Notes under the pieces: model-generated
Told to the model about the DNA's origin: nothing
Database searches by the model: none
Seen by the model: the letters and a program-made list of their open reading frames with translations, nothing else
Part shown: positions 37,477 to 61,215 of the stretch, piece after piece
Layout: each line of letters starts with the position of its first letter
Position numbering within the stretch: position 1 is the first letter of the stretch
Made by a program: the position numbers and the translations under genes
From: a virus
Direction: 5' to 3' (one strand)
Length of the DNA stretch: 64,000 bases
IMG/VR virus record: IMGVR_UViG_3300028840_008160
Coordinates: 186,001 to 250,000 of that record

Positions 37477-39000
37477 ATGGGTAAACATTACATTATAGTA
37501 CAAAAAGATTTTGTAAAATATGCTGCTGTCGATCGCTTGCGACAGTGGTGGGAGTCATTATCTTATAACGAGCAGCATCGTTATCTAAAACTCCATCCTA
37601 AAAGCAAACTTAAGCTGACAAAAACAAAAGAACAACAAGCTGTCAGCCTGTTAAGTTCCATTGTAAGACGATCACCGTTTAAAGGAAAAGCATTTCTTGC
37701 TGGTGGATACGTTAGAGATGAATTATTAGGTTTAAAACCAAAAGACATCGATGTTACTGTTGAATCATTAAACGGTGGAATAGATTTAGCTAACTATGTA
37801 GCATTTGAATTAGATCTTAGAGACCCTGTAATTTTTCCAACATTTGGCACAGCAAAAATAATGTTAAAATCAGGTGTTGACATTGAATTTGTTCAAACTA
37901 GAAATGAAGAATATGTTAGACATAGTCGTAAACCAAAAACAACATATGGCACATTGCAAGAAGATGTTGAGCGTCGAGATTTTACTATTAATACATTGTT
38001 GAAAGATCTATCTACAGGTGAAATTTTAGATTTGACAGGTAAAGGACTGAAAGATTTAAAAGATGGCATTGTTCGTACACCGTTAGATCCTAATATAACA
38101 TTCAATGACGATCCACTTAGAATGATTAGAGCTATTCGATTTGCGACAAAATATAATTTTAAATTAGCTGACAATATTGTACCTGCGATTAAAACTAATG
38201 CTAATGAATTAAAATGGGTGTCTAAAGAACGAATTAGAGATGAATTAAACAATATTTTGTTAACAAAAAGACCGAGTCAAGGTCTTGAGTTAATGAAAGA
38301 CACTGGTTTACTAAAAGTCGTTTTACCTGAATTATTAGATTTAGTTGGATTAAAACAAGGAAAATATCATTATACTGATGCATGGCGGCATACATTGCAA
38401 GTACTTGATAATACTAAACCAGTTCAAGATCTAGATTCTGGTGCGCCTATAGACAGACTTGCAGCGTTATTGCATGACATTGCTAAACCAAAAACTAAAT
38501 CTGTAACTGATCAAGGTGATATTCATTTTTACAGTCATGATGAGAAATCTAGTGAAATGGCTAAAGACATTTTAAGTAGATTAAAATATTCGAATAAAGT
38601 TATTGATGATGTGTCTAAAATTGTAGGCTTGCATATGAGAACTGTTGGAAGTAGCAAATGGAGTGATGCTGCTGTTCGTAGATTTATTAGAGACACTGAG
38701 CCATTGACTGATAATTTGTTTGATCTATTATTGGCAGATAGAAAGTCTCATCATCCACAAAAATCTGATCCGGCATCAATATTAATGTTGATGAAACGTG
38801 TTGATGAAGCAAAAAAAGAAATACATAAAGTAAGAAGTTTGCCAATCACGAGTCACAAAATAATGGAAATTTTGAATATAAAACCAGGGCCGCAAGTTGG
38901 CGAAGCGCGAGACTATTTAGCAGAAGAATTGCTAGAAGATCCAAATATGACAGAAACAGACGCAATCGAATTATTAAAGAAAAAGTTTTTAGTTGTTTGA
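37477..39000 (+). CDS. CCA-adding enzyme / tRNA nucleotidyltransferase with HD domain
   Basis: 507 aa. N-terminal 55 residues form a module shared with other proteins in this window (DFVKYA...WWESLSYNEQHRYLKLHPKSK). Then the class II nucleotidyltransferase core: AGGYVRDELLGLKPKDIDV, RRDFTINTLL, DDPLRMIRAIRFA; then an HD domain, LAALLHDIAKPK. It would repair or add tRNA 3' CCA. Could protect tRNAs from host anticodon-nuclease defence, which is inference. Confidence 0.9.
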   Translation: MGKHYIIVQKDFVKYAAVDRLRQWWESLSYNEQHRYLKLHPKSKLKLTKTKEQQAVSLLSSIVRRSPFKGKAFLAGGYVRDELLGLKPKDIDVTVESLNGGIDLANYVAFELDLRDPVIFPTFGTAKIMLKSGVDIEFVQTRNEEYVRHSRKPKTTYGTLQEDVERRDFTINTLLKDLSTGEILDLTGKGLKDLKDGIVRTPLDPNITFNDDPLRMIRAIRFATKYNFKLADNIVPAIKTNANELKWVSKERIRDELNNILLTKRPSQGLELMKDTGLLKVVLPELLDLVGLKQGKYHYTDAWRHTLQVLDNTKPVQDLDSGAPIDRLAALLHDIAKPKTKSVTDQGDIHFYSHDEKSSEMAKDILSRLKYSNKVIDDVSKIVGLHMRTVGSSKWSDAAVRRFIRDTEPLTDNLFDLLLADRKSHHPQKSDPASILMLMKRVDEAKKEIHKVRSLPITSHKIMEILNIKPGPQVGEARDYLAEELLEDPNMTETDAIELLKKKFLVV

Positions 39001-39054
39001 TAGCATCATTATATCTAAGAGAATTTGACTTGAATATTATTTGGAGGTTGAATG

Positions 39055-40404
39055 ATGAATCACATTGCACAAATTTGCGATGAATTCGTGAAGCTGTCAG
39101 CACCATGGTGGCAGGGAAAACGCTTTAGGCACCCTGATACAGGTAATAGAGTTAGATTTAAGTCATTACCACCAGAAGAGCAGAAACGATTAAATGCTCT
39201 TCATAAAGGTAAAGCTGATAAAAAGAAAGAAAGAGTCAAAGCTAAAGCTGACAAAGCTAAGCTTAGAAAAGAGCGAGCTAAAAAACGTTTAGAGAGAAAG
39301 AAAGAAAGAGAACAACGTAAAAAAGATCGAGCTAAGAGACGCAAGGAACGTGAAAAGAAACGTTTAGAAAAAGCAAAAGCATTTAAAGAAATGACACCGG
39401 AATCGCATCCTAACTTTTTTACTAAAAGTGGCAAACGACTAAATACAACAAGAGGCATGTTGCCCGGTGTACCTGTCGAGATTAATCCTGATTGGGATCC
39501 TGAGAAAGATAATCATTATTATGCTAAACAAATTAATCCAAAGACAGGTCGGCCGCTTCATTATTATACAGAAGATTTTATTAAACGGCATGATAAAATC
39601 AAGTTTGCTAATAATCAACGTTTTGGGGAATTATTACCAAAAATTAGACAGAAATATACAAATCTTCTTCGTAGTGATAATCCTCGTGATAAAGTTTATG
39701 CTACAGCCATTGCGCTTGTTGATCAAGGTGCTATGAGGATTGGAAACAAGAAAAGTGAAGAAGATGATGTTCGTGGACTGCATAATTTGCAAGTCAAACA
39801 TCTTGATTTAACTGGCGATAAAGCTACATTTTCATATGTAGGAAAGAAGAAGAAAGATCAAAGACATTCGTTTAATGTTGATAAAACTGTTAAGAATAAT
39901 TTGCAAGAATTGACTGCTGGTAAAAATCCTGAAGATCCAATTTTTACATGGAAAAAAGATGATGAAGAGATCAGAATTGCTCCAAAATTAGTAAACAGAT
40001 TCTTGCGTCAAAAACTAGGATCAAATGTAACAATTCATCATTTCCGTCATTATCATGGTACTAGAATAGCTGATGAATATTTAAGAGGCATAGACACTGA
40101 AAAGATTACGCCAAGACAAGCTGCTAGAGCTGTTAGAGAGGCAACTGTTGCTGTATCTGAAAAGCTTGGTAATACGCCGAATGTTGCACGTAAACATTAT
40201 ATTGATCCAACAGTATTTCAAATGTTTTTTAAGAGGGCGGGTATGAAACCACCAAAAGCAGCAGCAGTCGAAGTTGGTATAAAGAAACGAGCGCAAGACG
40301 AATTTAGCATTTCTTCGTCATATGGTATTACACCAGAAGAAGAAGAATTTAATGCTAGATTATGGGAAGTCAAACTTGAAGATTTAGAATCAGATAATGC
40401 TTAA
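39055..40404 (+). CDS. Type IB DNA topoisomerase
   Basis: About 449 aa. Begins with the leader NHIAQICDEFVKLSAPWW, then a very basic Lys/Arg/Glu helix (about 55-110). The catalytic part has RIGNKKSEEDDVRGLHNLQ, IHHFRHYHGT and NTPNVARKHYIDP, whose Tyr is the likely nucleophile; these match poxvirus/bacterial type IB enzymes. It relaxes supercoils. The leader and basic helix are unusual and may target it to the virion. ATG 39055 has better spacing to GGAGG than 39052. Confidence 0.88.
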   Translation: MNHIAQICDEFVKLSAPWWQGKRFRHPDTGNRVRFKSLPPEEQKRLNALHKGKADKKKERVKAKADKAKLRKERAKKRLERKKEREQRKKDRAKRRKEREKKRLEKAKAFKEMTPESHPNFFTKSGKRLNTTRGMLPGVPVEINPDWDPEKDNHYYAKQINPKTGRPLHYYTEDFIKRHDKIKFANNQRFGELLPKIRQKYTNLLRSDNPRDKVYATAIALVDQGAMRIGNKKSEEDDVRGLHNLQVKHLDLTGDKATFSYVGKKKKDQRHSFNVDKTVKNNLQELTAGKNPEDPIFTWKKDDEEIRIAPKLVNRFLRQKLGSNVTIHHFRHYHGTRIADEYLRGIDTEKITPRQAARAVREATVAVSEKLGNTPNVARKHYIDPTVFQMFFKRAGMKPPKAAAVEVGIKKRAQDEFSISSSYGITPEEEEFNARLWEVKLEDLESDNA

Positions 40405-40436
40405 ATTCTCTAATTCTAATAACATATTAGATTAAT

Positions 40437-40814
40437 ATGGAAGAAGAACTGCGAAGTCTTATCGAGGATGTCATAAAGAACTGCAATCATTCTACGACGA
40501 CAGATTGGCTGTCGTACTGTATACTTAGATCTGTCAAGGCTGAAGTTCTTAGTGACAAAAAAGTAATTGATCGTCGATTACTTACTAGTGGCATTCCGGC
40601 AGTTAATTCAAAAAGATTAATGGATAATGATTTTTATCAAATGCAAAGTAATGAATGGAAACAAGCGTATAGACTTTTATGTAGACCAGAATTTACCATC
40701 TGTATTGACATTGTTGAAGACGTTAAAATAGATGAGGCTGATAATCATTTTGTAAACGTCTTTGCTCGTCAATTGTTTATTCTTTTTAGAGACCCAGATG
40801 GTCCTGCCAGATAA
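40437..40814 (+). CDS. Hypothetical protein, 125 aa
   Basis: Mixed alpha/beta with NEWKQAYRLLCRPEF. No strong ribosome site. No family recognised. Confidence 0.58.
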   Translation: MEEELRSLIEDVIKNCNHSTTTDWLSYCILRSVKAEVLSDKKVIDRRLLTSGIPAVNSKRLMDNDFYQMQSNEWKQAYRLLCRPEFTICIDIVEDVKIDEADNHFVNVFARQLFILFRDPDGPAR

Positions 40815-40891
40815 TCCTCGCAACAATTCTTCCAGTTGTTTTCTTGAAAAAAATCTTCTTGTTTCATCTTGATTAAAATAATGGATGAATT

Positions 40892-42400
40892 ATGAGTGTA
40901 GATGAAAATCAGAAAAAAGCAATATTAGACGTAATTAGTTTATTAAAGTCTTCGTTTGACATTAAAGACGATGACGCAGTTGTTATTGCTCAAAGATTTA
41001 GTGATCAAGAACATGCATTAAATGATAAGCTTGAAGTCATAAAAAAGCGAGAACAAGAGTTAGATCATAATACTAGATTGAAGTTGCAACAAATTAAAAG
41101 TGATCAAAATGAAATAAGAAAACAACAGCATGATATTAGTCAACAGTTTAGGGATTTGAAACTTAAGATTGATGCATTAACTAGTCAAGAACGATCGATG
41201 AATGATCGTACAAATAATCTTAAACAGAGAGAGCAACAATTACAAGGGCAAAAAGAACAAATATTACAAGAATTAGAAAAAGTTGCTAGTCTATCTAGAC
41301 ATGAAGCATTAAATCGATTGTGTTCTAAATTAGAAAATGAAGCTAAGTTAAAAGTTGATAGACGAATAAGTGAAATGTTAAATGAAGCACAGATGACAAT
41401 GCAGACAAAAGCTAGAGATATTTTAGCTTATACGATTCAAAAAGAAACTGTTGATGTTATAACTAATTTAGCAACATCAACTGTGGATTTACCGGATGAT
41501 TCAATTAAAGGTAAGATAATAGGTCGTGAGGGTCGAAATATTAAATCATTTGAAGAAATAACGGGTGTAACTGTACTTATAGATGATACTCCAGAAACAA
41601 TTGTTTTATCATGTTACGATCCTGCTCGTAGAGAAATTGCTAGATTAGCCATGGTGCGGTTGATTGCTGATGGCAGAATACACCCGAGACGAATTGAAGA
41701 AATTGTTGAATTAGCAACAAACGAATTTAATGAAGAAGTTGTACGAATCGGTCAGGAAATGATTACAAAACATGATGTGCCTGACGTTCACCCTGAATTG
41801 ATTAAAACATTAGGGAAATTAAAATATCGCTCAAGTTATTCGCAAAACGTATTAGCTCATAGTGAAGAAGTTGCTTTAATAGCAGCCGATATTGCTAGCG
41901 AACTAGGGTTTAATAAGAAATTACTATTACGTGCCGGATTATTTCATGATATAGGTAAAGTGTTAGATAGAAATGAAGCTGGATCTCATGCTGAATTGGG
42001 TGCTGAATTTGCAAGACGCTATAACGAATCAGATCAAATTTGTCGACTTATAGCAGAACATCATGATAACGAACCAGCATCAGTGCAAACATGGATTATT
42101 AAAACAGCTGATACAATATCATCTGCAAGACCTGGTGCAAGGCAAGATTCATTTGATGCGTATATAAAACGATTACAAGATCTTGAAAGGATTGCTACAT
42201 CGTTTGCAGGTATTAAAGCAGCGTATGCAATGATGGCCGGTAGAGAGTTAAGAGTCATTGTTGAGCCTGACAGTATATCTGATGCTCAAATTGAAATTAT
42301 TGCAGATAACATAACAAATAAAATTCAAGGAACAATGACTTATCCTGGTCAGATCAAAGTAATTGTAATACGAGAAAAGCGGCAAGTCAGATACGCATAG
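40892..42400 (+). CDS. Ribonuclease Y-like endoribonuclease
   Basis: 502 aa. Coiled coil (about 40-150), KH domain GKIIGREGRNIKSFEEITGV near 206, HD domain LFHDIGKVLDR near 350, and the conserved SARPGARQDSFDAYI and VIVEPDSI. It matches bacterial RNase Y throughout except that the N-terminal membrane anchor is missing, so it should be soluble. RNase Y starts mRNA decay in Bacillota. It sits beside a YhaM-like exonuclease gene. Confidence 0.92.
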   Translation: MSVDENQKKAILDVISLLKSSFDIKDDDAVVIAQRFSDQEHALNDKLEVIKKREQELDHNTRLKLQQIKSDQNEIRKQQHDISQQFRDLKLKIDALTSQERSMNDRTNNLKQREQQLQGQKEQILQELEKVASLSRHEALNRLCSKLENEAKLKVDRRISEMLNEAQMTMQTKARDILAYTIQKETVDVITNLATSTVDLPDDSIKGKIIGREGRNIKSFEEITGVTVLIDDTPETIVLSCYDPARREIARLAMVRLIADGRIHPRRIEEIVELATNEFNEEVVRIGQEMITKHDVPDVHPELIKTLGKLKYRSSYSQNVLAHSEEVALIAADIASELGFNKKLLLRAGLFHDIGKVLDRNEAGSHAELGAEFARRYNESDQICRLIAEHHDNEPASVQTWIIKTADTISSARPGARQDSFDAYIKRLQDLERIATSFAGIKAAYAMMAGRELRVIVEPDSISDAQIEIIADNITNKIQGTMTYPGQIKVIVIREKRQVRYA

Positions 42401-42409
42401 GAGGGCAAC

Positions 42410-43135
42410 GTGGTTATTAGACGTCGATATATTGTGATAGTAATTTTAATTGCAGTTGTGGCAATTGTTAGTTCTATTGTGTTTTATTGTGTATTAAAAA
42501 AAGAATTAACAAAAATTACGAAAGAACAATATCAACAAATTGTCGCTCATAAAAAAACAAATCAATTTTTATTGTCGACAATTGATTGGTCGACAAGACG
42601 ACAAAAAACCATTTTGTATCTTCGAGACAAAATTGTAGAAGCTCAAATAACAACAAAACAAAAAGTTGAGTATGAATATGCATATGAAATTGCTGAACAG
42701 GTTGTTGTCGAGTCTGAAAAATATCCAACAATTGATGAATTTTTTGTTTTAGCTGTTATGCATCGAGAATCATGCTTTAATGATAGTGCCAAAAGTGAAA
42801 AAGGTGCGATTGGTTTAATGCAGATTATGCCTGAAACAGCTAGGTTATTGTGTGGCTTTTTTAATATGTCATATAATGATCACATACTCTATAATACAGA
42901 AATTAACATTAAATTTGGTGTAAAACTGCTCGAAGTGTTATATGCTTCTTATGAAAATTATGAAATAGCACTTGCAGGGTACAATGGTGGTCCATATTCA
43001 GCATATTATTACAAAGTTAAAGACAAACGATTATCTGATCAAACAGAGAAGTTTGTACCTTACATTATGACAAAATGGAATGAATATTCAGAAGGATTTA
43101 CAACATTTAGAGTAGATTCAACTACGCAAAGTTAG
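42410..43135 (+). CDS. Membrane-anchored lytic transglycosylase (SLT type)
   Basis: 241 aa from GTG 42410 (GGAGGG upstream). A single N-terminal membrane helix (IVIVILIAVVAIVSSIVFY) then an SLT domain: VMHRESCFN with the catalytic Glu near 119, GAIGLMQIMPETA, and ALAGYNGGP. It would cut peptidoglycan from the outer face of the membrane, for lysis or envelope remodelling. Confidence 0.88.
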   Translation: MVIRRRYIVIVILIAVVAIVSSIVFYCVLKKELTKITKEQYQQIVAHKKTNQFLLSTIDWSTRRQKTILYLRDKIVEAQITTKQKVEYEYAYEIAEQVVVESEKYPTIDEFFVLAVMHRESCFNDSAKSEKGAIGLMQIMPETARLLCGFFNMSYNDHILYNTEINIKFGVKLLEVLYASYENYEIALAGYNGGPYSAYYYKVKDKRLSDQTEKFVPYIMTKWNEYSEGFTTFRVDSTTQS

Positions 43136-43143
43136 GAGAGATT

Positions 43144-44064
43144 ATGTTTAAAGGTATTAATAATGGTGATGTAATATCTGCTGTTGTTTTAATCAAGTCT
43201 ATTTTAAAGAATAAAACTCGGCAAGATACAGATTATTTGCGATTAAGCGTCAATGATGGTAAAGATGATATCACAGCTTTTATGTGGGACACTGCATCTT
43301 GTGAATTTAAAGAAGGCGATGTTGTAAGACTAAAGGGTTCATTTGGAACATACGACAATAAACCAAAAATTGATGTAATTGAGATTAAAGCTACAACAGA
43401 AAAACTTAAGTTGAAGTCATTATCTGGTGATGAAATGACAGATTTTGTTGACCGGTTTAAAAAATTACGAAAAAAGATTGATGATAAAGATCTTATGGAC
43501 TTACTTTCTAATATTTTTGACAATGATGTACTTTGGTCATTATATTGTACTGCTCCAGCTGCTAAATCAAATCACCATGCATATTTAGGAGGGTTATTAC
43601 AACATTCTGTAGAAGTTGCAGAGCATTGCTATGCATTATATAAACTTGATCCAATTTACATAAATGTAAGCTTGCTAATAACAGGGGCTCTGTTACACGA
43701 TATAGGTAAAATAAAAGAATATGAATATGAGAAACAATTCGATAGAACTACGTCTGGTAAGTTGATAGGGCATACTTCGTTAAGTCTGCTGATTATTAGT
43801 AGGATATTACCGGATGGATTTCCGCCAAAGAAATCTACAGAATTGATTCATTTGATTTTGTCACATCATGGAAAACGAGATTGGGGTGCGCCAGTAGAAC
43901 CAATGACAAAAGAAGCTGTAATATTGCATCATTGTGATATGGTCGCTTCTTATAATGGCAGATTTAATGAACAAAAAGCTAGTGCTAAAGGACATGAATT
44001 TTCAGCGTATGACAAAACTTACAATAGACACTGGTATTTCAAAACAACAGATGATAAAGCTTGA
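43144..44064 (+). CDS. YhaM-like 3'-5' exoribonuclease (OB + HD domain)
   Basis: 306 aa. N-terminal OB fold (LRLSVNDGKDDITAFMWD, VVRLKGSFGTYDNKPKIDV) and C-terminal HD domain (YLGGLLQHSVEVAEH, ALLHDIGKIKEY near 181, HLILSHHGKRDWGAPVEP). This is the YhaM/CBF1 layout known from Bacillota. Together with RNase Y it could remodel host or phage mRNA decay. Confidence 0.9.
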   Translation: MFKGINNGDVISAVVLIKSILKNKTRQDTDYLRLSVNDGKDDITAFMWDTASCEFKEGDVVRLKGSFGTYDNKPKIDVIEIKATTEKLKLKSLSGDEMTDFVDRFKKLRKKIDDKDLMDLLSNIFDNDVLWSLYCTAPAAKSNHHAYLGGLLQHSVEVAEHCYALYKLDPIYINVSLLITGALLHDIGKIKEYEYEKQFDRTTSGKLIGHTSLSLLIISRILPDGFPPKKSTELIHLILSHHGKRDWGAPVEPMTKEAVILHHCDMVASYNGRFNEQKASAKGHEFSAYDKTYNRHWYFKTTDDKA

Positions 44065-44422
44065 TTTTAGCATATTTGCACAGCAATTTGACTTGATGCT
44101 TAAAACTGTCGGATATGCTCGTGTTAAATTCTTTTTCTTTTTATATCATACTAGACCTATAAAATGCGCAGGATATTTACATAGCGTACGACAAGCGAAG
44201 TTTTTTGGTGATTCAGTTATTGTGATAAAATTTACTCATTTAAAATGCGGGCAATATTCACGACATGGTGTATTACCTTTGCGAAATATTAGATTTATTA
44301 AAAGTAGTTTAGGTGATTACGCACAATATATCAAGAATAATAATGTGCTTGATCAATTTTTAGCAAATCATATTGAACAACATGAGCGAACATTAACAAA
44401 GTTCAACATAATAGCTGATTAA
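44051..44422 (+). CDS. Hypothetical protein, 123 aa
   Basis: Beta-rich; FFFFLYHTRPIKCAGYLH and FGDSVIVIKFTHLKCG. ATG 44051 overlaps YhaM by 14 bases; ATG 44009 is an alternative. No family recognised. Confidence 0.58.
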   Translation: MIKLDFSIFAQQFDLMLKTVGYARVKFFFFLYHTRPIKCAGYLHSVRQAKFFGDSVIVIKFTHLKCGQYSRHGVLPLRNIRFIKSSLGDYAQYIKNNNVLDQFLANHIEQHERTLTKFNIIAD

Positions 44423-44423
44423 T

Positions 44424-44552
44424 GAGGGAGCGGAAGAGTTGCCGGTGAGCAGGTGTCTGGCGCCAGAAACTGTTAACTTAATAGAATTTGAGATCTGGTA
44501 AGTAGTAGCAAGATGCTTTGCGAAAAACTTTATCTTCCGCTCCCTCTTTTTT
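44424..44552 (+). ncRNA. Structured RNA element with a 14-bp closing stem
   Basis: 44424-44437 pairs perfectly with 44533-44546, then six T. The 95 bases between include a self-complementary TCTGGCGCCAGA. No ORF of note and no tRNA pattern. It could be a small RNA ending in its own terminator, or a complex terminator/leader for the membrane-protein gene that follows. Confidence 0.6.
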
Positions 44553-44586
44553 AGAAATGGTTGTATTGGAATTTTCAGAGGACAAT

Positions 44587-44796
44587 ATGTCAAAGAGTGT
44601 TAAAATCTTCGTAATCTTTATGATAGTAATATCAACATTATTTACAATAAGCGTCGTTTACATTTTGATATCTTGTTTAGGATCATCTGTTTGCTTACCT
44701 GTTGAAAAAAATCTCAACGACAGTTTATATGAGATTATTTGGATTGATACTTTACCAAAAACAGAGTACGGTATAGCAGCTAAGCGTATATGGTAA
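44587..44796 (+). CDS. Small membrane protein, 69 aa
   Basis: AGAGGA before ATG 44587. One N-terminal membrane helix (IFVIFMIVISTLFTISVVYI), then a short polar tail with two Cys. Could be a lysis (spanin/holin-like) or inner-membrane protein; cannot be decided. Confidence 0.6.
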   Translation: MSKSVKIFVIFMIVISTLFTISVVYILISCLGSSVCLPVEKNLNDSLYEIIWIDTLPKTEYGIAAKRIW

Positions 44797-44860
44797 GCCA
44801 AAAAATTAATTGCTACGTAAATTGTCATGACTACTCACAACTATAGGATGAGGAGATGTC

Positions 44861-45385
44861 ATGGCAAAATCTACCAAGCCATTAAATTACAAACAAGTTG
44901 ATGAATTTGTTAAAACTCAAAAAAATCCTACCTATAGTATTTTCAAAACTGCGCATCCCAAATCAAAAGTTTCTCGAACATCTTTCGGTCGTCGTAAAAA
45001 TTTCCTTCAAACAGGAAAAAAGCGCGATCAGTCGAGGCGTCATTTAAAAGGTCCGGCAGGATATCATAGAATTGATTACACAGTTGTTGACAAATTCATA
45101 AGACAACAACCAGATGCTTTGTATCAGGATTTCAAAGCTAAAAACAGAAGTTTTAATATTTGTTTGGGCACATTTAATGTTCGAAGAAAAAAAATACTTG
45201 GACAATCGGTCAGTTTAGATAAACCACAACTTTACATGAGATTATGGTCAGGCAAATGTAGTGATGAAACAATAAAAGTTATTAGATCGATTATTACTGT
45301 TTTGAACAAAACTGGTAGAGCTAGAATAGAAGCAATCGAATTATCCAACCCATCCATATTAGAGATAAGGGAGGCAGGCAAATGA
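44861..45385 (+). CDS. Hypothetical protein with two repeated domains, 174 aa
   Basis: GAGGAGA upstream. Two similar halves: NYKQVDEFVKTQ...RTSFGRRKNFL and DYTVVDKFIRQQ...GTFNVRRKKIL. The basic, repeated HTH-like pattern would fit DNA or RNA binding. No family recognised. Confidence 0.65.
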   Translation: MAKSTKPLNYKQVDEFVKTQKNPTYSIFKTAHPKSKVSRTSFGRRKNFLQTGKKRDQSRRHLKGPAGYHRIDYTVVDKFIRQQPDALYQDFKAKNRSFNICLGTFNVRRKKILGQSVSLDKPQLYMRLWSGKCSDETIKVIRSIITVLNKTGRARIEAIELSNPSILEIREAGK

Positions 45386-45825: not shown

Positions 45826-45849
45826 TTGTCAAACATTAATTTTTTATCA

Positions 45850-47905: not shown

Positions 47906-47907
47906 AT

Positions 47908-49933: not shown

Positions 49934-51379
49934 ATGGCTACAAGATTCAAAGAACGAAAAGTTAAGCCGGGTGACAAAGATTATGATCCACAGCAATGTG
50001 GATTTACAGAAACTAAGAAGTTCAAGGTTCTTCATTGTAGTAATGTCGAAGGCAATAACAATAAATTTTATTGCATTGAATTGCAGTATAATCCATCAAC
50101 AAGTTGTTATAGACTATTCTCTCATTATGGTCGACTCGTAACATCTGAAGTGTTTGGCATTCGTGATTACGATTATATTTCAAATGGGACAATTAAAGAT
50201 TCATCTTATCTTGAGACTGAAATGGATTCAATTGTTAAGAAGAAACTTCGTGGCAAAACCATTAAAGATAAAGATACAAATCAAGAGTGGCGGGAAAACT
50301 ACGAAGAAGTTGAAACATTTGCACCAACAGTTGGATCTTCAAACATTCGCGGAAAATCAAGTACTGTTACAACTAAAACAGCTGTGATTGACACATCGAC
50401 TATATCTAACAAGAAAATTATTCGTATTATTGACCAAGTTGTGAATGAAAATATTCACAATATTACGTCTGTAACAACACTAACACTGACATCTAATGGT
50501 TTTGAAACTCCACTTGGTCCTGTAACAAAAGAACATGTACAACGAGCAAGAACAGCATTAGATTCCATGAAGGCTGAATTGAAAGACGATAAGCTTAGTA
50601 GTTCATCGTCGGCTGTGATTAAAGGTAATAATTTATACTATTCATTAATTCCGCACGAGTTTGGCCGAAAGATTACTGAAGCTGATTGGATTCTTGATTC
50701 TGCAAAACTTATTGAAGAATATGATTTGCTTGATCAGCTTGAGTCTGCTGTTCAAATGGGTGCTGCGCTTAATCAAAGTGCTTCGCAACGAATGAATGCG
50801 CTTGGTATTGATTTTGATGAACTTACTGATGATCAGGAATTTAAACGTTTAGAAAATTATGTTCATCAATCAAAAGCGTCAAACCATCGAAGTTTAGATG
50901 TTTGGGGTTGGAAAGTTAAGAATATCTTCACTGTAAAAATACCTAAAGAAAGACAACGTTTCGAACCAGTGGCAAAACGACTTGGTAATGTTAAAGAACT
51001 TTTTCATGGTTCTCGAAATTGTAATATTCTAAGTATTTTGTCGAATGGATTAATTATTCCTCCATGTCATGCTGGTCATGTAACTGGTCGATTGTATGGC
51101 AATGGAATTTATGGTGCACATCACAGTACTAAATCGTTAAATTATTCAACTGGTTGGTGGTCAGGATCGCGAAATAAATATGACAATGCTTTTCTGTTTG
51201 TTGTCAAATTTGCAATGGGTAACACTTATATAGTAAAACATCATAGTGGCGGACCGCCTCGTGGTTATGATAGTTTATGGGCAAAATCAAGTCCTGGTGG
51301 TTTATATAATGATGAATATATTGTTTATACATTACCACAAGCGACAATAACTCATTTGATTGAAATGGCAAAAAGATGA
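49934..51379 (+). CDS. Poly(ADP-ribose) polymerase-like protein (WGR + regulatory + ART domains)
   Basis: 481 aa. A WGR-like domain (about 30-105: FYCIELQYNPSTSCYRLF, SHYGRLVTSEVFG), a helical PARP regulatory region (about 235-310: YYSLIPHEFGRK, LLDQLESA), then the catalytic ART domain. The H-Y-E triad is present: His358 in LFHGSRN, Tyr404 in SLNYSTG, Glu461 in YNDEYIVYT. Eukaryotic-type PARPs use this triad for poly- rather than mono-ADP-ribosylation. It would consume NAD+. Possible target: DNA ends, host proteins or RNA. The full three-domain layout is unusual for a phage. Confidence 0.88.
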   Translation: MATRFKERKVKPGDKDYDPQQCGFTETKKFKVLHCSNVEGNNNKFYCIELQYNPSTSCYRLFSHYGRLVTSEVFGIRDYDYISNGTIKDSSYLETEMDSIVKKKLRGKTIKDKDTNQEWRENYEEVETFAPTVGSSNIRGKSSTVTTKTAVIDTSTISNKKIIRIIDQVVNENIHNITSVTTLTLTSNGFETPLGPVTKEHVQRARTALDSMKAELKDDKLSSSSSAVIKGNNLYYSLIPHEFGRKITEADWILDSAKLIEEYDLLDQLESAVQMGAALNQSASQRMNALGIDFDELTDDQEFKRLENYVHQSKASNHRSLDVWGWKVKNIFTVKIPKERQRFEPVAKRLGNVKELFHGSRNCNILSILSNGLIIPPCHAGHVTGRLYGNGIYGAHHSTKSLNYSTGWWSGSRNKYDNAFLFVVKFAMGNTYIVKHHSGGPPRGYDSLWAKSSPGGLYNDEYIVYTLPQATITHLIEMAKR

Positions 51380-53660: not shown

Positions 53661-53667
53661 GGTTGTT

Positions 53668-54021
53668 ATGTATGAATATAAAGCGACCGTCATGCGCATC
53701 ATTGATGGTGATACAATTGAAGTTGTTATTGATCTTGGGTTTTTTGTTACTATTAAACAAACAGTAAGATTTGCAAGAATTGATGCATATGAAATTAAAA
53801 AATATGCAGGTGTAACAGATGAAGAAAAAGCAAAGGGAATTGAAGGGAAAAATTATCTAGAATCATTGTTATTGAATAGAGAAATTCGAGTTGTAACAGT
53901 TAAAGATCAAGGAAAATATGGTCGATATATAGCTGATGTATTTTTGGATGAAGATGGTATGAATATTAACGTCAATGACGAGATGGTTAAATTAGGGTTT
54001 GCGCAATATGTTAAATACTGA
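53668..54021 (+). CDS. Thermonuclease (SNase)-like protein
   Basis: 117 aa. MRIIDGDTIEVVID, VRFARIDAYEIKK and KYGRYIADVF carry the staphylococcal nuclease Asp, Arg and Glu/Arg positions. No signal peptide, so it would act inside the cell. Could degrade host nucleic acid. Confidence 0.85.
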   Translation: MYEYKATVMRIIDGDTIEVVIDLGFFVTIKQTVRFARIDAYEIKKYAGVTDEEKAKGIEGKNYLESLLLNREIRVVTVKDQGKYGRYIADVFLDEDGMNINVNDEMVKLGFAQYVKY

Positions 54022-54096
54022 ACTATGATATCTATTGTGATTAAATTAAAGGATGGTCAAGATTGTCAATGAATTTATTGATGGTTATGAAGCAAA

Positions 54097-54597
54097 ATGA
54101 AAAAATATTTAGTTTGGTTGTTCAAATTCTTTTGTTCACGAAAATTAAAAACGTTAAATGATAGCCCATATGACGAGAAGTCTTTTGGATTCGTACAACA
54201 ATTAGAAGGCAAAAAAGTGAGAGTGTTATACATCAATGAAATTATTAAAGAAAATATTCAGCGAATGATTAAAAACGCTGAAGCGAATAAAATAGACATT
54301 AATCAAATGAGAAAAATATCAGAAGGTTTATTACCAGCTGTTGGTTACGATGCTAATTTTACATGCAATATTGAACATGGATTTAAAGTAGTATTTAGTA
54401 TTGAGCAACAATTAGATAAAAATTGGTATAGACATATGTCGGTTTCCATAAATGATAAATCCAAGTTACCAAGTATACCTGCTGTTGAATTGTTAATGCA
54501 AGAATTTGGATTTATTGGTGGTATACATGATTGTGATCATGTATGGATCGAACGAAATATTTCACCTATGGCTGTAAATATTATACAAAAGAGGTAG
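54097..54597 (+). CDS. Hypothetical protein, 166 aa
   Basis: Basic start (MKKYLVWLFKFFCSRK) that could be a membrane-peripheral helix, then alpha/beta. No family recognised. Confidence 0.6.
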   Translation: MKKYLVWLFKFFCSRKLKTLNDSPYDEKSFGFVQQLEGKKVRVLYINEIIKENIQRMIKNAEANKIDINQMRKISEGLLPAVGYDANFTCNIEHGFKVVFSIEQQLDKNWYRHMSVSINDKSKLPSIPAVELLMQEFGFIGGIHDCDHVWIERNISPMAVNIIQKR

Positions 54598-54598
54598 T

Positions 54599-54751
54599 AT
54601 GATCGAACATATTCGCGTGCCTATTAAAGGTGTGTTAGCAGGAGATAACTCTATAAACAATGCACTGGCTAAATATGGTAAGCGAGCAGTTGATGTAATT
54701 AGTATAACTGTTGTAGGTGAAGAATTTGTTGTTTTTTATAGAGAAGATTAA
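54599..54751 (+). CDS. Hypothetical protein, 50 aa
   Basis: AGAGGTAGT before ATG 54599. Mixed small protein; its end meets the convergent minus-strand gene with 4 bases of overlap. Confidence 0.5.
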   Translation: MIEHIRVPIKGVLAGDNSINNALAKYGKRAVDVISITVVGEEFVVFYRED

Positions 54752-55431
54752 TATACATCTGCTAGGATCATGTAATTCTTTTTATCAACAATTTCTGGCG
54801 AAGTAGCAGCAGCCCATTGATCAATCGCGTTTGAAATCTCATCTTTACGATTCGCTAATATTCTTTTCATATTATTGTCATTTGTCATTAGATCAAATTG
54901 TTCAACTGGTATTTGTGGCTCTTTGATTTTTGGAGCCGGTACATGTCTAATGAGTTCGTCAAACTTTTTTCTATCGCATAAAGCTCGTATAATTAGATTA
55001 TGCAATTTGTTTTTGTTACCGTATGTTTTTGCGTTTAGCTTAGCTTTTTTTAGTTCAATAATTCGGTAGTCATTTTTTTCTCGTAGATTCATTAACTGGT
55101 CTCGAATCATTTTTCTATATGTTTCAGCGTCGTTTTTTATCATATCATATACGGATTTTATTGTTTTTGCAAATGTAGCTTTTGCCGCTGGTGTCATGTC
55201 ATTTGCAAAGTTACTTAAAGTTTTGAGTAAGTTTGATCCTACAACGCCTGCCTGTATAATTTTATCAATTTTTTCATAAGCTGGTTTATACTTCTCTTGC
55301 TCCTGCAATGACAACGATCTGATTTTGACGCGATTGCGTTGGCCTGTTGGTGTTATGTGCCATACGAATCTATCTCTCCAGTTCATAGCAAGCTTTAGAA
55401 ATTCAGCTTGAATTTGAGCTAAATGTTTCAT
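54748..55431 (-). CDS. Hypothetical protein with virion-type leader, 227 aa
   Basis: Starts MKHLAQIQAEFLKLAMNW, nearly the same leader as the proteins at 39055 and 60733, and shares a TGQRNRVKIRSLSLQEQ segment with the topoisomerase. The rest is Lys-rich helix. A single minus-strand gene inside a plus-strand region. Function unknown; may be carried in the virion. Confidence 0.68.
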   Translation of the reverse strand: MKHLAQIQAEFLKLAMNWRDRFVWHITPTGQRNRVKIRSLSLQEQEKYKPAYEKIDKIIQAGVVGSNLLKTLSNFANDMTPAAKATFAKTIKSVYDMIKNDAETYRKMIRDQLMNLREKNDYRIIELKKAKLNAKTYGNKNKLHNLIIRALCDRKKFDELIRHVPAPKIKEPQIPVEQFDLMTNDNNMKRILANRKDEISNAIDQWAAATSPEIVDKKNYMILADVY

Positions 55432-55519
55432 TTCATCGTCCTTCTGACTGATTATAAAAACTATTCACTATTATATTGCGATAGATAAAAACACAATTAA
55501 ACTGTTGAAAGTAAATGCG

Positions 55520-55546
55520 TTGATTATGACAACATACAATTATAAC
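55520..55546 (+). promoter_or_regulatory. Candidate promoter in the divergent gap
   Basis: TTGATT (55520-55525), 15-base spacer and TATAAC (55541-55546). The gap separates the minus-strand leader protein from the plus-strand genes that resume. A NotI-type GCGGCCGC (55553-55560) abuts the ATG of the next gene. Confidence 0.35.
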
Positions 55547-55560
55547 AGAATAGCGGCCGC

Positions 55561-55728
55561 ATGATTGCGTTTGATGAATTCAAACGCAGACAATTGATTG
55601 AGGCAATTGTCAACTTACCATTATTTGCTGACGGCATTCAAATCAATGCCGGTGCAGAACTAACTATTATAGAAATAATCCCACTGAACGAAAACGTGTT
55701 AAGCATGTCAGTTAAAAACTTAACGTGA
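55561..55728 (+). CDS. Hypothetical protein, 55 aa
   Basis: ATG 55561 directly follows the GCGGCCGC palindrome, leaving no ribosome site. Frame is open and protein-like (FDEFKRRQLIEAIVNLPL). The next gene has GTGAGGAG in its tail. Confidence 0.48.
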   Translation: MIAFDEFKRRQLIEAIVNLPLFADGIQINAGAELTIIEIIPLNENVLSMSVKNLT

Positions 55729-55738
55729 GGAGTATCAT

Positions 55739-56869
55739 ATGTTACAGAAAAAAGTTGCTAGCACACTAGTAAATGTGCTCGACACACCAAGAATGCAAAC
55801 CATTCTTGACAAATCACAACCTATACAACCTGTTATTGATGAATTGACAAGTCATTGGAGTTATGATTTGTATTCAAGGAAACCTGGGGCTGCTTATACA
55901 AACGACGGTATTTTTGTTGGTACTGATCTTGATCTTGCTTGTTTTCTTTTTGCTTTGGCTGAACGCGGCGCAGTCATTAACATTCCAAAATATACAAGTC
56001 GTCGACCAAAGCAAGTGACTGAGGGCGAAATTATTACTTCAGCAGACAATCGTCACGGTAAAATTCTTAGCGTTTTGGCTAATAAAGAAAATTCTTCTTT
56101 TTCAATTCGCATTAATGATGCAAATGTTATGACGACAGATTCTGTCGGTAATTTCCGAAATTTTATGCTTGTTGATGTTGACGGTACATGGTATGATGGT
56201 TGGGCTACAATTGAGTTTATACCGGATGCCAAAGAGAATGATTTTTTGAAGAACAACAATCTTTGGTCAGGCAATTCTGTAGTTTTTAAGAATTTTATTC
56301 ATCCTAATCGGTGGATTTCGTTTTTTGGTCAACATTATTTTGCAACCAAAGTGTTGCTTGATCGACTTACTGATGAAGCCAAATTTCTCAAAGATGTTGC
56401 TAAAATTATGAGAGAACGAGGAATTAAAATTGGTGGCAATGGTGTAGAAAAAAAACAATGGCCAAAGAAAACTGTTGTCGGAGAACAGCAGAGCATTAAA
56501 GTAGATGTGATTGAAGCTGAAGTCGAGTATCCTGCATTTACAGGTGATTATCCTAATCCTGTTAGTCCAATGTTGCCACAATATTCAGGATCAAGTGATT
56601 CAGAATTATTGAAAGCTGTGGAAGATCGTTCAAGATCGCTGACATATTCAATCATTCCTAAGTTACGGTTTGCTACTCGTGCAACTGAATTTGCTTTTAT
56701 GAAGCATGGCGACAAGGGATTAAAGATGCCGTCGTGGATTGAAAATTCACGATGGGATCGATTATATGTGCAAAAGGGCAAAAAGAAAGTATGGAGTAGA
56801 ATGGTTTTTACAAGAGGAATTGCTCTTCGATATCGCGTATTTCAGAAGAGTGAGATTGTAGCAAAATGA
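55739..56869 (+). CDS. Hypothetical protein, 376 aa
   Basis: GTGAGGAG upstream. Mixed fold with a middle Asp-rich beta part (VDVDGTWYDGW) and a basic C-terminus. Overlaps the next gene by 4 bases. No family recognised. Confidence 0.68.
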   Translation: MLQKKVASTLVNVLDTPRMQTILDKSQPIQPVIDELTSHWSYDLYSRKPGAAYTNDGIFVGTDLDLACFLFALAERGAVINIPKYTSRRPKQVTEGEIITSADNRHGKILSVLANKENSSFSIRINDANVMTTDSVGNFRNFMLVDVDGTWYDGWATIEFIPDAKENDFLKNNNLWSGNSVVFKNFIHPNRWISFFGQHYFATKVLLDRLTDEAKFLKDVAKIMRERGIKIGGNGVEKKQWPKKTVVGEQQSIKVDVIEAEVEYPAFTGDYPNPVSPMLPQYSGSSDSELLKAVEDRSRSLTYSIIPKLRFATRATEFAFMKHGDKGLKMPSWIENSRWDRLYVQKGKKKVWSRMVFTRGIALRYRVFQKSEIVAK

Positions 56870-57306
56870 ATCAACAATCTGATGACAAGAGCTCTGCGAC
56901 ATATTTCGCAGAGCTCTTAACTGGCACAAATGTTGATAAAGCGAGCGAATTATATAAGGCTCGTTTTTGTGCAATGCTGTCTTTAGTTAATTTTCGTTTG
57001 ATTCATAATTTGTTAAAGACTAAGTTTAGAGACACATCGCACGAAGAGGAGGTAAATACATTACCTAAGTTAATTGTTGACGTGTGGAAAGAAAGTGAAA
57101 TTGAATTATTGCGAACTGAGTTTGAAGAATATTCTAAACATATGGATTCAGCTTTGGGTCAATTGTTTAAAGGTTTGACAGGCTCACCAGATGATGTTAT
57201 GAAAAAACGTATTGCAAAGATAGTTGATGTTGCTAACATAATAACTGAATCATTAACAAAATCAAGCGGGTTTACTTTTGAGAAAAAAGATGAATCAAAA
57301 CAGTGA
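56866..57306 (+). CDS. Hypothetical helical protein, 146 aa
   Basis: ATGA overlap with the previous gene. Helical. A 13-bp hairpin lies inside its first 50 bases. No family recognised. Confidence 0.62.
   Translation: MNQQSDDKSSATYFAELLTGTNVDKASELYKARFCAMLSLVNFRLIHNLLKTKFRDTSHEEEVNTLPKLIVDVWKESEIELLRTEFEEYSKHMDSALGQLFKGLTGSPDDVMKKRIAKIVDVANIITESLTKSSGFTFEKKDESKQ
56887..56918 (+). promoter_or_regulatory. Strong hairpin at a gene start
   Basis: 56887-56899 pairs perfectly with 56906-56918 (13 bp, 6-base loop), no T tract. It starts 18 bases after the preceding stop codon, inside the next coding region. Confidence 0.5.
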
Positions 57307-57505
57307 TATTAAAGTGACTAGTGATCCTGATGACGACAGCGTTTTGCATGTTTCATTTACACTAAGACCAAATTATTCCATTAAAGGAAAAATGGGATTT
57401 CTTACTAAGAATGGTTCATTTATGTCTATGGACATGTTGCGAAAGTCTATTGAAAAAACTAAAAGTGCGGATCAAATTTTTTCAATTGGGACGAAATTAG
57501 AATGA
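57290..57505 (+). CDS. Hypothetical protein, 71 aa
   Basis: ATG 57290 overlaps the previous gene by 17 bases. Beta-rich. Ends by overlapping the epimerase-like start (ATGA). Confidence 0.55.
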   Translation: MNQNSDIKVTSDPDDDSVLHVSFTLRPNYSIKGKMGFLTKNGSFMSMDMLRKSIEKTKSADQIFSIGTKLE

Positions 57506-57645
57506 TTTTAGTTACTGGTGTGGCAGGTTTTATTGGCTATCATGTGGCTAAGGAATTACTAGAGCAGAGTAGAGAGCTAGTACTCTCGTACGCGGGCCCA
57601 GATTGCAGACTGTCTACGCTTGCAAACTTTCAGCCTAGGCCCTAA
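57502..57645 (+). pseudogene. Truncated NAD-dependent epimerase/dehydratase start
   Basis: MILVTGVAGFIGYHVAKELL is the Rossmann N-terminus of a nucleotide-sugar epimerase (GxxGxxG). After about codon 22 the sequence abruptly changes to GC-rich, non-protein-like DNA and the frame ends at TAA 57643. The gene appears cut off at about 57566. Confidence 0.65.
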
Positions 57646-57843
57646 CAAACTGCTTACTTGCTCTTGCTGAGTCTGCAGTCTATTGTCTCTATCGTCAGCA
57701 TATAGCTTATGCCGACTGTCTCAACAGCTGGCGCACTAACTGCCCTACAATAGCCGCCCTCTAGTCAGCGTGTAAGAGAGGATAGGGTGCCACTTAACAG
57801 CATATGTTCAATGACATCGACAGTATTACTCTGAGTGGACACT
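57566..57843 (+). other. GC-rich gene-free block
   Basis: About 49% G+C in 57601-57780 (89 of 180 counted), against 25-38% in nearby lines. Stops in every frame; no gene seen. Contains short inverted repeats (GGGCC/GGCCC, GCATA/TATGC, GCAGACT/AGTCTGC) and the repeated GACTGTCT. Could be inserted foreign DNA, a structured RNA or packaging region, or an assembly artefact. Confidence 0.55.
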
Positions 57844-58557
57844 TTAGAACGCTGATGCCGGTTTGATATCTAAGTATCTTTCAAGATGTATTGGTTCATT
57901 AAGATTTTCTACATGCACATCTGCGTAAACAGTAAACTCACCCCATACTACTAAATCTAGTTTAAAATTTTCGTCTTTGTTTGTCATCTCTCTGACTGGT
58001 GGTTTGAACGTTTCATGTAAATGATATACGACTTTAGTGATTTTGCTGTATGTATCTTGGTCGTGAGCTAATGTTTCTATTCGAATTCTAAAATGTCTGC
58101 GGCGGTTTACTATACGTTCAAACGCTGAATAATGTGTCAAGTATATTAGTTTTGAATAACGTTCTATAAGTTCTTGCGTCAACTGTTTTTGGGATGCCTG
58201 TGGTAGTATTGATTGATTTGTTTTTTCTACAATTGTTGGTTTACCAATTACGATTTTTGGTGGGCTTTTAGGATTTGATTTGACAGGTGCATCTGTGACT
58301 TCTAATTGTTGTTCTATTTCTTTAACTTCGTCTTTGATTTTTGTAATAGTTGTGTCTTTAGCATCTAGATTTGGAATTTCACCAAGTTCAAAATATTGAC
58401 CGATTTTAACGTTACTACCCATTAGAATTCTTTGTTTTAATGCATCAAGAACATCTTTTGACAACAATATCAGAATTACGATAAATATTGGCCAAATAAG
58501 TTTGCTAATTAAAGGAAGTATCAATTCCCACGTTTTTGTTTTTTCAGTCGGTAACAT
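57844..58557 (-). CDS. Membrane protein with C-terminal pYEATS-like domain, 237 aa
   Basis: One N-terminal membrane helix (LIWPIFIVILILLSKDVL), a charged linker, and a C-terminal domain (about 165-235) with KVVYHLHETFKPP, FKLDLVVWGEFTVYADVHV, the YEATS pattern of a Leu-His motif and a W-G-x-F turn. Prokaryotic YEATS domains are found in predicted conflict and signalling proteins; no acyl-lysine binding has been shown here. Encoded downstream of the GH5 gene on the minus strand. Confidence 0.7.
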   Translation of the reverse strand: MLPTEKTKTWELILPLISKLIWPIFIVILILLSKDVLDALKQRILMGSNVKIGQYFELGEIPNLDAKDTTITKIKDEVKEIEQQLEVTDAPVKSNPKSPPKIVIGKPTIVEKTNQSILPQASQKQLTQELIERYSKLIYLTHYSAFERIVNRRRHFRIRIETLAHDQDTYSKITKVVYHLHETFKPPVREMTNKDENFKLDLVVWGEFTVYADVHVENLNEPIHLERYLDIKPASAF

Positions 58558-58735
58558 TAATAGCCTTCTTTTTTAATAACGATTTATGATATGCTAATAA
58601 TGATTTGCGTGTTGATTTGATGTGCTTCCGCCAATTGCAACTTGATCGCAAACAAACTTTTGCTAATCCTTTAGTTTGACCGTTGTAGCATAGTATTGAT
58701 TTGTGCAATCCAAGACGACATAATAAATTTTTCAT
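58544..58735 (-). CDS. Small Cys-rich DUF1660-like protein, 63 aa
   Basis: KNLLCRLGLHKS start, CYNG and CLRSSC, similar in pattern to phage DUF1660 proteins. It overlaps the pYEATS gene by 14 bases and abuts GH5. ATG 58735 is preferred to 58744. Confidence 0.55.
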   Translation of the reverse strand: MKNLLCRLGLHKSILCYNGQTKGLAKVCLRSSCNWRKHIKSTRKSLLAYHKSLLKKKAINVTD

Positions 58736-60135
58736 TACGACCACCTAACAATAATTTCTTGTTTTGCTAATTGCATATCATTTGCGTGCATATAAATTTC
58801 ATAAGGTGGATAACCAGTCCATGGAGTAGTTATACCATTTGCTTCTACAGTGACATTGGACAATGTCGGCGGTATATACACGTTTGTCGGTGCTGCGATT
58901 GGTAAACTGTCGTATGTCAATGTAAATTTTTTGCCGATTATGCCCCATACAGGATTTGCTCCGGATATGTTTCTTGGATATACACGAACTAATTTGTCTA
59001 TAACTGGTTTGGGATTACCGCTATCATCTAACATACCATAAGTATTATACGACGATTTATCATAACTCCAATAACACCAACCAACTTTATATTTATCTGC
59101 TAAATCACAAAAATCATTTACATAATTTAAATATCCTGGCACATCTGGTGGTGCGCCAAATTCACCGAAGACTAATGGAACGCCGTAAGATTTTGCTTCG
59201 TCAACTTTGATTTTTATAGCTTGTTCCATGATACTTCTATTATACCATTTGTATGGTCTGCCTTCATGTACTAAGGCGTCATAATAATGTGGAAAATATA
59301 TTGCTCTGTTGTTTTGTGGTGCAAATTTTAGAAAACTTGGTATTCCAGAACTTGTTGATATCCACGGTTCAAAAAACATATTAGAATATAATGAACTGTT
59401 AAGTAGTCTAGCCCACATATCTTTATAAAAATTTGTTAACACTTTACTTTCAAATGCTGTCGTTAAACCCGGAAAAGGTTCATTCATTACATCAAAACCA
59501 ACTAATGTTGGTGGTTGATTTGGCAATGAAGCTTCGATTCTATTCATTGTGTATTCGACAGCATTCAAGTATTGTGTTTTGCGCGAACTGCTTTTCCAAA
59601 AATTTGTAAATGCTGTAAGCACTGCTGGTTGTAAATAATTTCGACTCCAAGGCTCCCATGCTGGCGTAATAAAGTTAACAGTTTGATATACATCACCAAT
59701 AAAAGGAATCGTAATTTTAACTCTTTGATCAATTGACCAATCAGGAAAACCGTTTCCTGTAAAACGTTCTGCCATTAAATCTTGATGAAAGTCGACTATT
59801 GAATAAATTCCTGCATTTCTTAATAAGTTAAGATCAGTTATAACCTGATCAATGTATGCGTTATTGTAATTACCTGCTGTTGGTTCTATTTCACTCCAAA
59901 ATACTAGGTACCTGACAAGGCTAAACCCCCAGCTTCTAAGTTTTAAAATATCTAGAACTTCGGGCCACATTTCATGTCCTGGTGAATGTTTTTGATAATT
60001 TGAAATATTAACACCATGAAATATGAAGATTCTGTTATGTGAATCATAAATATAGTTAGTATCAGATATTACAGGCGGTTCATAATTTTGTTTTATATAG
60101 TTGATCATTTGAATTAAATATCTACTTATAGCCAT
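58735..60135 (-). CDS. GH5-family glycoside hydrolase (endoglycoceramidase-like)
   Basis: 466 aa. TIM-barrel glycosidase: SLVRYLVFWSEIEP, VDFHQDL, VGFDVMNEPFPG (acid/base Glu, about 216), and PLVFGEFGAPP (nucleophile Glu, about 324). A beta C-terminal domain follows. No signal peptide. CCTCC on the plus strand (60141-60145) is its ribosome site, so ATG 60135 is used. Unusual in a phage: it may be a tail-associated depolymerase or a cargo enzyme acquired from a bacterium. Confidence 0.85.
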   Translation of the reverse strand: MAISRYLIQMINYIKQNYEPPVISDTNYIYDSHNRIFIFHGVNISNYQKHSPGHEMWPEVLDILKLRSWGFSLVRYLVFWSEIEPTAGNYNNAYIDQVITDLNLLRNAGIYSIVDFHQDLMAERFTGNGFPDWSIDQRVKITIPFIGDVYQTVNFITPAWEPWSRNYLQPAVLTAFTNFWKSSSRKTQYLNAVEYTMNRIEASLPNQPPTLVGFDVMNEPFPGLTTAFESKVLTNFYKDMWARLLNSSLYSNMFFEPWISTSSGIPSFLKFAPQNNRAIYFPHYYDALVHEGRPYKWYNRSIMEQAIKIKVDEAKSYGVPLVFGEFGAPPDVPGYLNYVNDFCDLADKYKVGWCYWSYDKSSYNTYGMLDDSGNPKPVIDKLVRVYPRNISGANPVWGIIGKKFTLTYDSLPIAAPTNVYIPPTLSNVTVEANGITTPWTGYPPYEIYMHANDMQLAKQEIIVRWS

Positions 60136-60174
60136 GTAGTCCTCCAATTTTTTTGACGTGTATAGTTACTGTGT

Positions 60175-60203
60175 TTATCAAAAATTGATAACACATGTAT
60201 AAT
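60175..60203 (+). promoter_or_regulatory. Candidate promoter for the 60.2 kb genes
   Basis: TTATCA (60175-60180), 17-base spacer, TATAAT (60198-60203), in the 80-base gap between the divergent GH5 and plus-strand genes. Confidence 0.45.
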
Positions 60204-60216
60204 TTAAGGAGGATAC

Positions 60217-60729
60217 GTGAAAAAAGTCTCTCGAAAATGGCAGGATTTGACATACGAAGAACAGACGAAATATCTTCGTAAACATAGGAAAAGTAAACAA
60301 CGTCCGACAGGTATGCCTGTAGATCCACGATTTGTTGAAGTTAATGAGATTAAGCAGACTATGGGTGGATTGAATAAAATGGTTGAAGGAAAAGAAGAAC
60401 AAGTACAGCAGCAAGCAGATGAATGGTTAACGAAATTAAAACAATTGGGATTCACAGAACTAGATACTGATGGTCATGTGATAAAGCTTCAACGAGGAAA
60501 TGTTTTGGCATCTGTTGGTATAGGTAAAGGCAAAATGCGATGGTTTGCTCATTTTGACATAAATCCAATACATACAGCTAATTGCAAGTACATCAAAAAA
60601 GATGACGTGTATTATATGAAATGTGATGGTGAGAATATTCCTGTAGACATTGATGCTCCACCAAAATTTAAAGCTAATTCAGAAATGATTATAAAACAAG
60701 CTGTGAAAGAATTTTTAACAAGGGAGTAG
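60217..60729 (+). CDS. Hypothetical protein with shared WxxLxYEEQ module, 170 aa (GTG start)
   Basis: AAGGAGG before GTG 60217. Starts KWQDLTYEEQTKYLRKHRKS, matching the module in the neighbouring 60733 product and in the CCA enzyme. The middle (QRGNVLASVGIGKGKMRWFA) looks globular. Function unknown. Confidence 0.65.
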   Translation: MKKVSRKWQDLTYEEQTKYLRKHRKSKQRPTGMPVDPRFVEVNEIKQTMGGLNKMVEGKEEQVQQQADEWLTKLKQLGFTELDTDGHVIKLQRGNVLASVGIGKGKMRWFAHFDINPIHTANCKYIKKDDVYYMKCDGENIPVDIDAPPKFKANSEMIIKQAVKEFLTRE

Positions 60730-60732
60730 TTT

Positions 60733-61215
60733 ATGTTGAAGTATCTTGCAGCTATTCAAGCTGAATTTCTTAAACTCGCCCGAAAATGGGATGATTTATC
60801 GTATGAGCAGCAAAGAGGTTATTTATCTCGTCATCCTCGTACGAAACGCCGAGTTACTGCAATGCCACCTCGAAGATCGCCAACTAGTGGATTAAGGGTG
60901 GAAGATCCACATAGAGGTCAATCTAGAGATATTTTAGGTATGCTTCGTGATGTCACTAATGCAGCTTCACAAACACCCGTATGGCGCAAATACGTGACTG
61001 TAAGAAATGATCGCAATAACAAATATCATTATTTTGGCGTTTTTGAAAATAAAGATGGCGGATTTACTGCAGCTAATGTGTATGGTCGTATTGGTTATCC
61101 TCCAAGAGGCGCTGTTGTTTTAGCCACAGCAGCAAAACCTGACGGTGCAATAAGAGCTGCTGAAGCTAAACTTGCTAAGAAAATGCAAAAAGGATATGTG
61201 CCGACAAAACTCTAG
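60733..61215 (+). CDS. Hypothetical protein with leader and shared module, 160 aa
   Basis: LKYLAAIQAEFLKLA leader, then KWDDLSYEQQRGYLSRHP and a globular C-terminus. It combines both halves of the recurrent N-terminal module, so it helps to define it. Followed by a strong terminator. Confidence 0.7.
   Translation: MLKYLAAIQAEFLKLARKWDDLSYEQQRGYLSRHPRTKRRVTAMPPRRSPTSGLRVEDPHRGQSRDILGMLRDVTNAASQTPVWRKYVTVRNDRNNKYHYFGVFENKDGGFTAANVYGRIGYPPRGAVVLATAAKPDGAIRAAEAKLAKKMQKGYVPTKL

Follow-up and report, generated by a model that had tools for sequence, protein, structure and literature searches.

A portable, modular N-terminal leader on unrelated proteins of a jumbo-phage lineage as a candidate virion-targeting tag

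The Alt protein of phage T4 is an ADP-ribosyltransferase and one of the cargoes of the capsid-targeting sequence (CTS) of that phage. In T4 a conserved N-terminal CTS encapsidates highly diverse internal proteins (PMC3012670), and for IPIII the first 10 residues suffice, residues 4 and 7 being important for targeting (PMC9026906). The T4 signals comprise 10-20 residues, occur on few proteins and are cleaved off (PMC5694885, PMC9026906). In phage P1 the N-terminal 30 residues of DarB bring a reporter into the head (PMC9024508), and for the inner head proteins of the SPN3US/phiKZ type the N-terminal regions have been proposed to target the prohead (PMC5694885).

The leader described here, a stretch of ~43 residues at the N-terminus, belongs to a new portable, protein-level family found in one jumbo-phage lineage. 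As in T4, one conserved N-terminal sequence stands on diverse proteins, here 107 proteins with 63 groups of cargo, and one of the cargoes is of the same class as Alt. Unlike the T4 signal, it is built from two or three exchangeable modules and is carried by about 24 proteins in one genome, and a conserved cleavage site was not found in it; module A alone, with its 15 residues, would fit the range of 10-20, whereas the full leader of modules A and B would not. Since the full leader exceeds the T4 length and no conserved cleavage site was found in it, it is not classed as a T4 CTS, and the likeness would be one of logic rather than of proven homology. With P1 it may be compared in that an N-terminal stretch of at most 30 residues of DarB is enough to package a reporter; the Dar proteins, however, share no consensus (PMC9024508), while the consensus here is strong and widespread. 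The proposed prohead-targeting regions of the SPN3US/phiKZ type are likewise N-terminal, but these propeptides are mostly longer than 100 residues and are removed by the prohead protease, and PMC5694885 describes for them no consensus that is portable between unrelated enzymes.

The window, that is, the whole stretch of 64,000 nucleotides that was analysed, covers bases 186001-250000 of a 329.8-kb virus record, and its source is a jumbo phage. The genes for terminase and portal lie at 42-54 kb of the genome along with those for the head maturation protease and the major head protein, between which a 596-aa protein is encoded; a tail sheath gene is also present. Among annotated phages the nearest major head protein is that of an uncultured 485-kb phage (51%), followed by that of Bacillus phage G (47%); no close cultured relative was found, and the topoisomerase or the sigma-like factor as query brought no further relatives. 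Kinship with the published bS21 phages of similar size was ruled out, the bS21 gene being absent here.

A first-pass annotation of the window had noticed related N-terminal motifs on five proteins, all of which were recovered at the places it had given, with small corrections in two of the patterns. Module A reads MNHIAQICDEFVKLS in the topoisomerase (39055), MKHLAQIQAEFLKLA in the minus-strand protein (55431) and LKYLAAIQAEFLKLA in the WGR protein (60733), and the CCA enzyme has QKDFVKYA plus WWESLSYNEQHRYL. Module B reads WQDLTYEEQTKYL in the product of 60217 and WDDLSYEQQRGYL in that of 60733. The pattern W-x-x-L-[ST]-Y-x-E-Q-x-x-Y-L, which had been ascribed to the CCA enzyme and to the 60217 and 60733 products, holds for the first two, and the third deviates from it with YEQQ, a Q standing where the pattern has E. 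The segment written as TGxxNRVxxxSL is indeed common to the topoisomerase and the 54.7-kb protein, with a two-residue gap between the two copies (TGNRVRFKSL versus TGQRNRVKIRSL), and represents module C. The leader features of the window are listed here, the other-record profile being one trained on 28 leaders from other phage records only.

37483..37626, plus strand: leader of the CCA-adding enzyme (degenerate module A, QKDFVKYA, and module B); gene 37477-39000; other-record profile E 2e-12
39055..39099, plus strand: module A of topoisomerase IB; gene 39052-40404; module A profile E 4e-8, the topoisomerase being among the seeds of that profile
39124..39201, plus strand: module C (FRHPDTGNRVRFKSLPPEEQKRLNAL) of the topoisomerase; comparison of module C copies
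55387..55431, minus strand: module A of the protein of gene 54748-55431; other-record profile E 6e-7
55279..55356, minus strand: module C of the protein of gene 54748-55431; comparison of module C copies
60217..60312, plus strand: module B without module A, protein of gene 60217-60729; other-record profile E 8e-12
60733..60864, plus strand: full leader (modules A and B) of the WGR-domain protein, gene 60733-61215; other-record profile E 1e-22, Pfam WGR

The Pfam PolyA_pol domain of the CCA-adding enzyme begins only at residue 72, and the Topoisom_I domain of the topoisomerase at residue 176. The orthologs of the topoisomerase (55% identity) and of the WGR protein in phage record G001 both bear the leader. 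Directly 3' of the leader genes 60217 and 60733 a strong terminator-like hairpin (13 pairs, T-rich tail) lies at window positions 61245-61274.

Module A follows the pattern MKHLAxIQxEFLKxA and occupies residues 1-15; module B, RKWDDLSxEEQxxYLxRHPKSKRRLT, runs from RKW through a basic tail, of which the stretch HPKSKRR is conserved. The consensus of 29 aligned leaders is MKHLAxIQxEFxKEARKWxDLSxxEQKxYLKRHPKSKRRxTAKP. On some proteins A or B is present alone, in two proteins (genome positions 304910 and 315507) module B is doubled, and in the topoisomerase and the 54.7-kb protein module C stands where B would be; two additional copies of module C were found in G001. The AlphaFold model of the 60733 product (29 sequences) contains helices at residues 3-17 and 24-33, of good to high confidence, followed by a disordered stretch at residues 57-64 and a separate WGR-type domain, and on these grounds the leader is predicted to fold autonomously as a two-helix unit on a flexible joint, connected to its cargo by a disordered linker. 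In this unit helix A would lead through the WDDLS turn into helix B with its basic tail. The helical periodicity of leader conservation was not significant (p 0.35 and 0.15), and the leader gave no significant match to Pfam, PHROG or PDB families. Departures from the usual arrangement were also observed. In G001 a 217-aa frame (L042) has module A at its start and module B at its extreme C-terminus, and at G001:C1:216549-216671 (L036) an in-frame TGA interrupts the leader near the conserved tryptophan. At 301439-302471 of the present genome a frame change within module B disrupts a leader gene whose G001 ortholog is intact; the change is either a real mutation or an assembly error.

A motif search of the whole genome, which the first-pass annotation had proposed, raised the number of members from five to about 24. 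In this genome the profile of the other records' leaders recovered 22 open frames with E<0.01, the strongest at 4e-26, and none of 4,638 reversed or 4,638 shuffled control frames; its training leaders had first been recruited by the profile of this genome, so that the test is held out in sequence and not in discovery. The topoisomerase reached an E-value of only 0.035 with this profile because it lacks module B. Although the profile was free to match anywhere in an open frame, the N-terminal position not being imposed, the match started no more than 40 residues after the preceding stop codon in 72 of the 76 leader proteins of the first seven records. Altogether, 107 leader proteins were counted in 11 phage records (32 in G001, 24 in this genome, 14 in G010, 13 in G019, 10 in G018, and lower numbers in smaller fragments). 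No leader was detected in the 131 and 211 kb of records G002 and G003, which have an 83% identical major head protein and either are fragments or stem from a related lineage that lacks the system; nor was any found in phage G and Tunturi_5, whose heads are related. Scanning of 84,980 bacterial and archaeal genomes gave 30 pattern-matching stretches, none of which was confirmed as a leader.

The claim that a common N-terminal leader stands on proteins with unrelated downstream domains is strongly supported by this collection. When the leader was removed and cargoes of at least 30 residues were compared (BLASTP E<1e-3, a threshold below which more distant homology is possible), 101 cargoes fell into 63 groups, 42 of them single, which excludes a leader intrinsic to one domain family. 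The CCA enzymes of phage G, Tunturi_5 and record G004 start near the catalytic domain and have no leader; the leaderless enzymes of phage G and Tunturi_5 indicate that the leader is an add-on. Phage topoisomerases align with that of the window only from residue 122 or later, and a G010 protein is 64% identical to the CCA enzyme of the window over a region confined to the leader. Orthologs of only 40-58% identity still retain their leaders, and the conserved residues are encoded by several synonymous codons, showing that the constraint acts on the protein.

The cargoes identified include topoisomerase IB, the CCA enzyme, the WGR protein, an FtsK/SpoIIIE-like ATPase, an ADP-ribosyltransferase (PF03496), an aldo-keto reductase, a rhodanese, a protein with a weak match to nucleoside deoxyribosyltransferase, an M17 aminopeptidase found in two records (Pfam), and a sigma-like factor encoded directly upstream of the terminase here, with leader-bearing orthologs in three other records. 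Most of the remaining cargoes had no match to anything. No leader was present on the major head protein, portal, terminase and protease, or on PolIII, RecA, the anaerobic ribonucleotide reductase and the 5'-3' exonuclease. WGR domains usually occur together with PARPs, and a protein with PARP catalytic and regulatory domains, without a leader, is encoded at window positions 49934-51379 of the genome that encodes the leader-bearing WGR protein. At window positions 4502-10633 the PolIII alpha subunit is encoded by two open frames separated by another gene; the first carries the PHP part, and the second the polymerase part together with an intein-splicing domain.

The leader genes are unevenly placed. 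None of the 24 lies at 130-223 kb of the genome, where 116 of 384 genes are located (P=1e-4, for an interval chosen after inspection of the map), and the part of this leader-free 93-kb block that falls in the window holds replication genes. Adjacent pairs of leader genes number 9 against 1.4 expected by chance, G019 contains a run of neighbouring leader genes, and some leader genes (at 41, 71-72 and 127 kb) are found within the structural gene region. In cultured phages no full leader was detected, only module B, in Yoloswag, SNUABM_5 and fHe-Yen9-02; a pattern scan beside the homologs in Y3 and AD1 gave no module B. In Yoloswag (Erwinia) and fHe-Yen9-02 (Yersinia) the gene of the module-B protein precedes that of the head maturation protease by a few genes. 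The annotated starts of these two genes (loci L065:2968-3966 and L066:1968-3005) are too late, the open frame running upstream through module B and overlapping a glycosyltransferase gene, and the full open frame of the Yoloswag protein begins WWNSLTRAEQERYLKRHPRSK. The profile gave E-values of 1e-8 and 1e-9 for one of these genomes. The Erwinia match lies not in the frame of the glycosyltransferase but in that of the following gene.

A trafficking tag that brings its cargo into the virion is the explanation that we favour, with a probability of roughly two in three (about 0.68), on the basis of the logic of the cargoes, the placement of the genes and the analogy with T4. The tagged enzymes act on DNA, tRNA, peptides and metabolites and the replication and shell proteins that were checked are untagged, so that a shared journey fits better than a shared workplace, and packaging into the head followed by injection is a known journey of such a sort. 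All leaders would dock to one shared component of the prohead as it grows, either the core or scaffold or the inner capsid surface, the docked cargo would be enclosed together with the phage genome, and it would then enter the next host, in the manner of the internal proteins that carry the T4 capsid-targeting sequence. Several cargoes, namely the sigma-like factor, the ADP-ribosyltransferase, topoisomerase IB, the CCA enzyme and the FtsK-like ATPase, are suited to the first minutes of infection, a head maturation protease is encoded in this genome, and in Yoloswag and fHe-Yen9-02 the gene of the module-B protein has the head protease gene nearby. Against this, the CCA enzyme and the aldo-keto reductase have no obvious need for injection, and the possibly fragmentary records G002 and G003, phage G and Tunturi_5 show no leader although their heads are related. 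No conserved cleavage site of the T4 type was found: in some leaders the pair E14-A15 is reminiscent of the T4 cleavage step, yet E14 precedes A15 in only 20 of 58, an [LVI]-K-E-A-like step occurs in a minority, and the nearly invariant E10 stands in a different context. The literature searched contained no virion proteomics of relatives.

It is unlikely that the leader uses the basic tail of module B to tether proteins to the DNA of the phage or to a body rich in DNA within infected cells, any packaging being secondary. Such tethering would account for the conserved HPKSKRR, the topoisomerase, the sigma-like factor and the FtsK-like protein act on DNA, and the best PDB profile match of module B was an HMG-box protein at a non-significant E of 0.5; however, phage DNA is not what the CCA enzyme, aminopeptidase, rhodanese or ADP-ribosyltransferase acts on, PolIII, RecA and the exonuclease have no leader, and several proteins have module A only and hence no basic tail. 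The untagged replication proteins also weigh against an import or sorting signal that leads to a compartment of infected cells, either a phage nucleus or a vesicle, or else to a target in the host or a membrane, since they are the ones that would need import. Sorting by short portable N-terminal signals is common, and in jumbo phages of the Chimalliviridae, which build compartments, replication proteins are imported (PMC13282480), but the CCA enzyme and the topoisomerase would be expected to reside in different compartments, the phage has a major head protein of the phage G type and only 24 proteins bear the leader, which leaves this reading improbable.

The presence of some leader genes inside the structural region could suggest that their products are ordinary structural proteins and that the role of the leader lies in head or tail morphogenesis itself; the cargoes identified are enzymes, though, and the identified head proteins, portal and terminase are without it, so that we regard this as very improbable. 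The least credible of the readings takes the leader for a mobile DNA cassette, or for an artefact left by gene duplication, that has no function of its own. The leader genes do lie in tandem clusters and recombination may well have spread the leader, but its invariant residues with varying synonymous codons and its maintenance on orthologs of 40-58% identity point to selection at the protein level.

Which proteins giant phages inject, and how these are selected, is largely unknown, and their identification has so far needed mass spectrometry of cultured phages. It is on balance probable that one modular two-helix sequence defines the injected proteome of this jumbo-phage lineage, and that the gain of a leader makes the product of any gene virion cargo. 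Dozens of enzymes, most without an assigned function but with an ADP-ribosyltransferase and a sigma-like factor among them, would then be loaded by one mechanism and could be listed from sequence alone, and the discovery of injected proteins would become a motif search. Such a readable tag would single out, in uncultured phages, dozens of proteins of unknown function as candidates for injection, and it could be transferred to other proteins in order to load them into phage heads.
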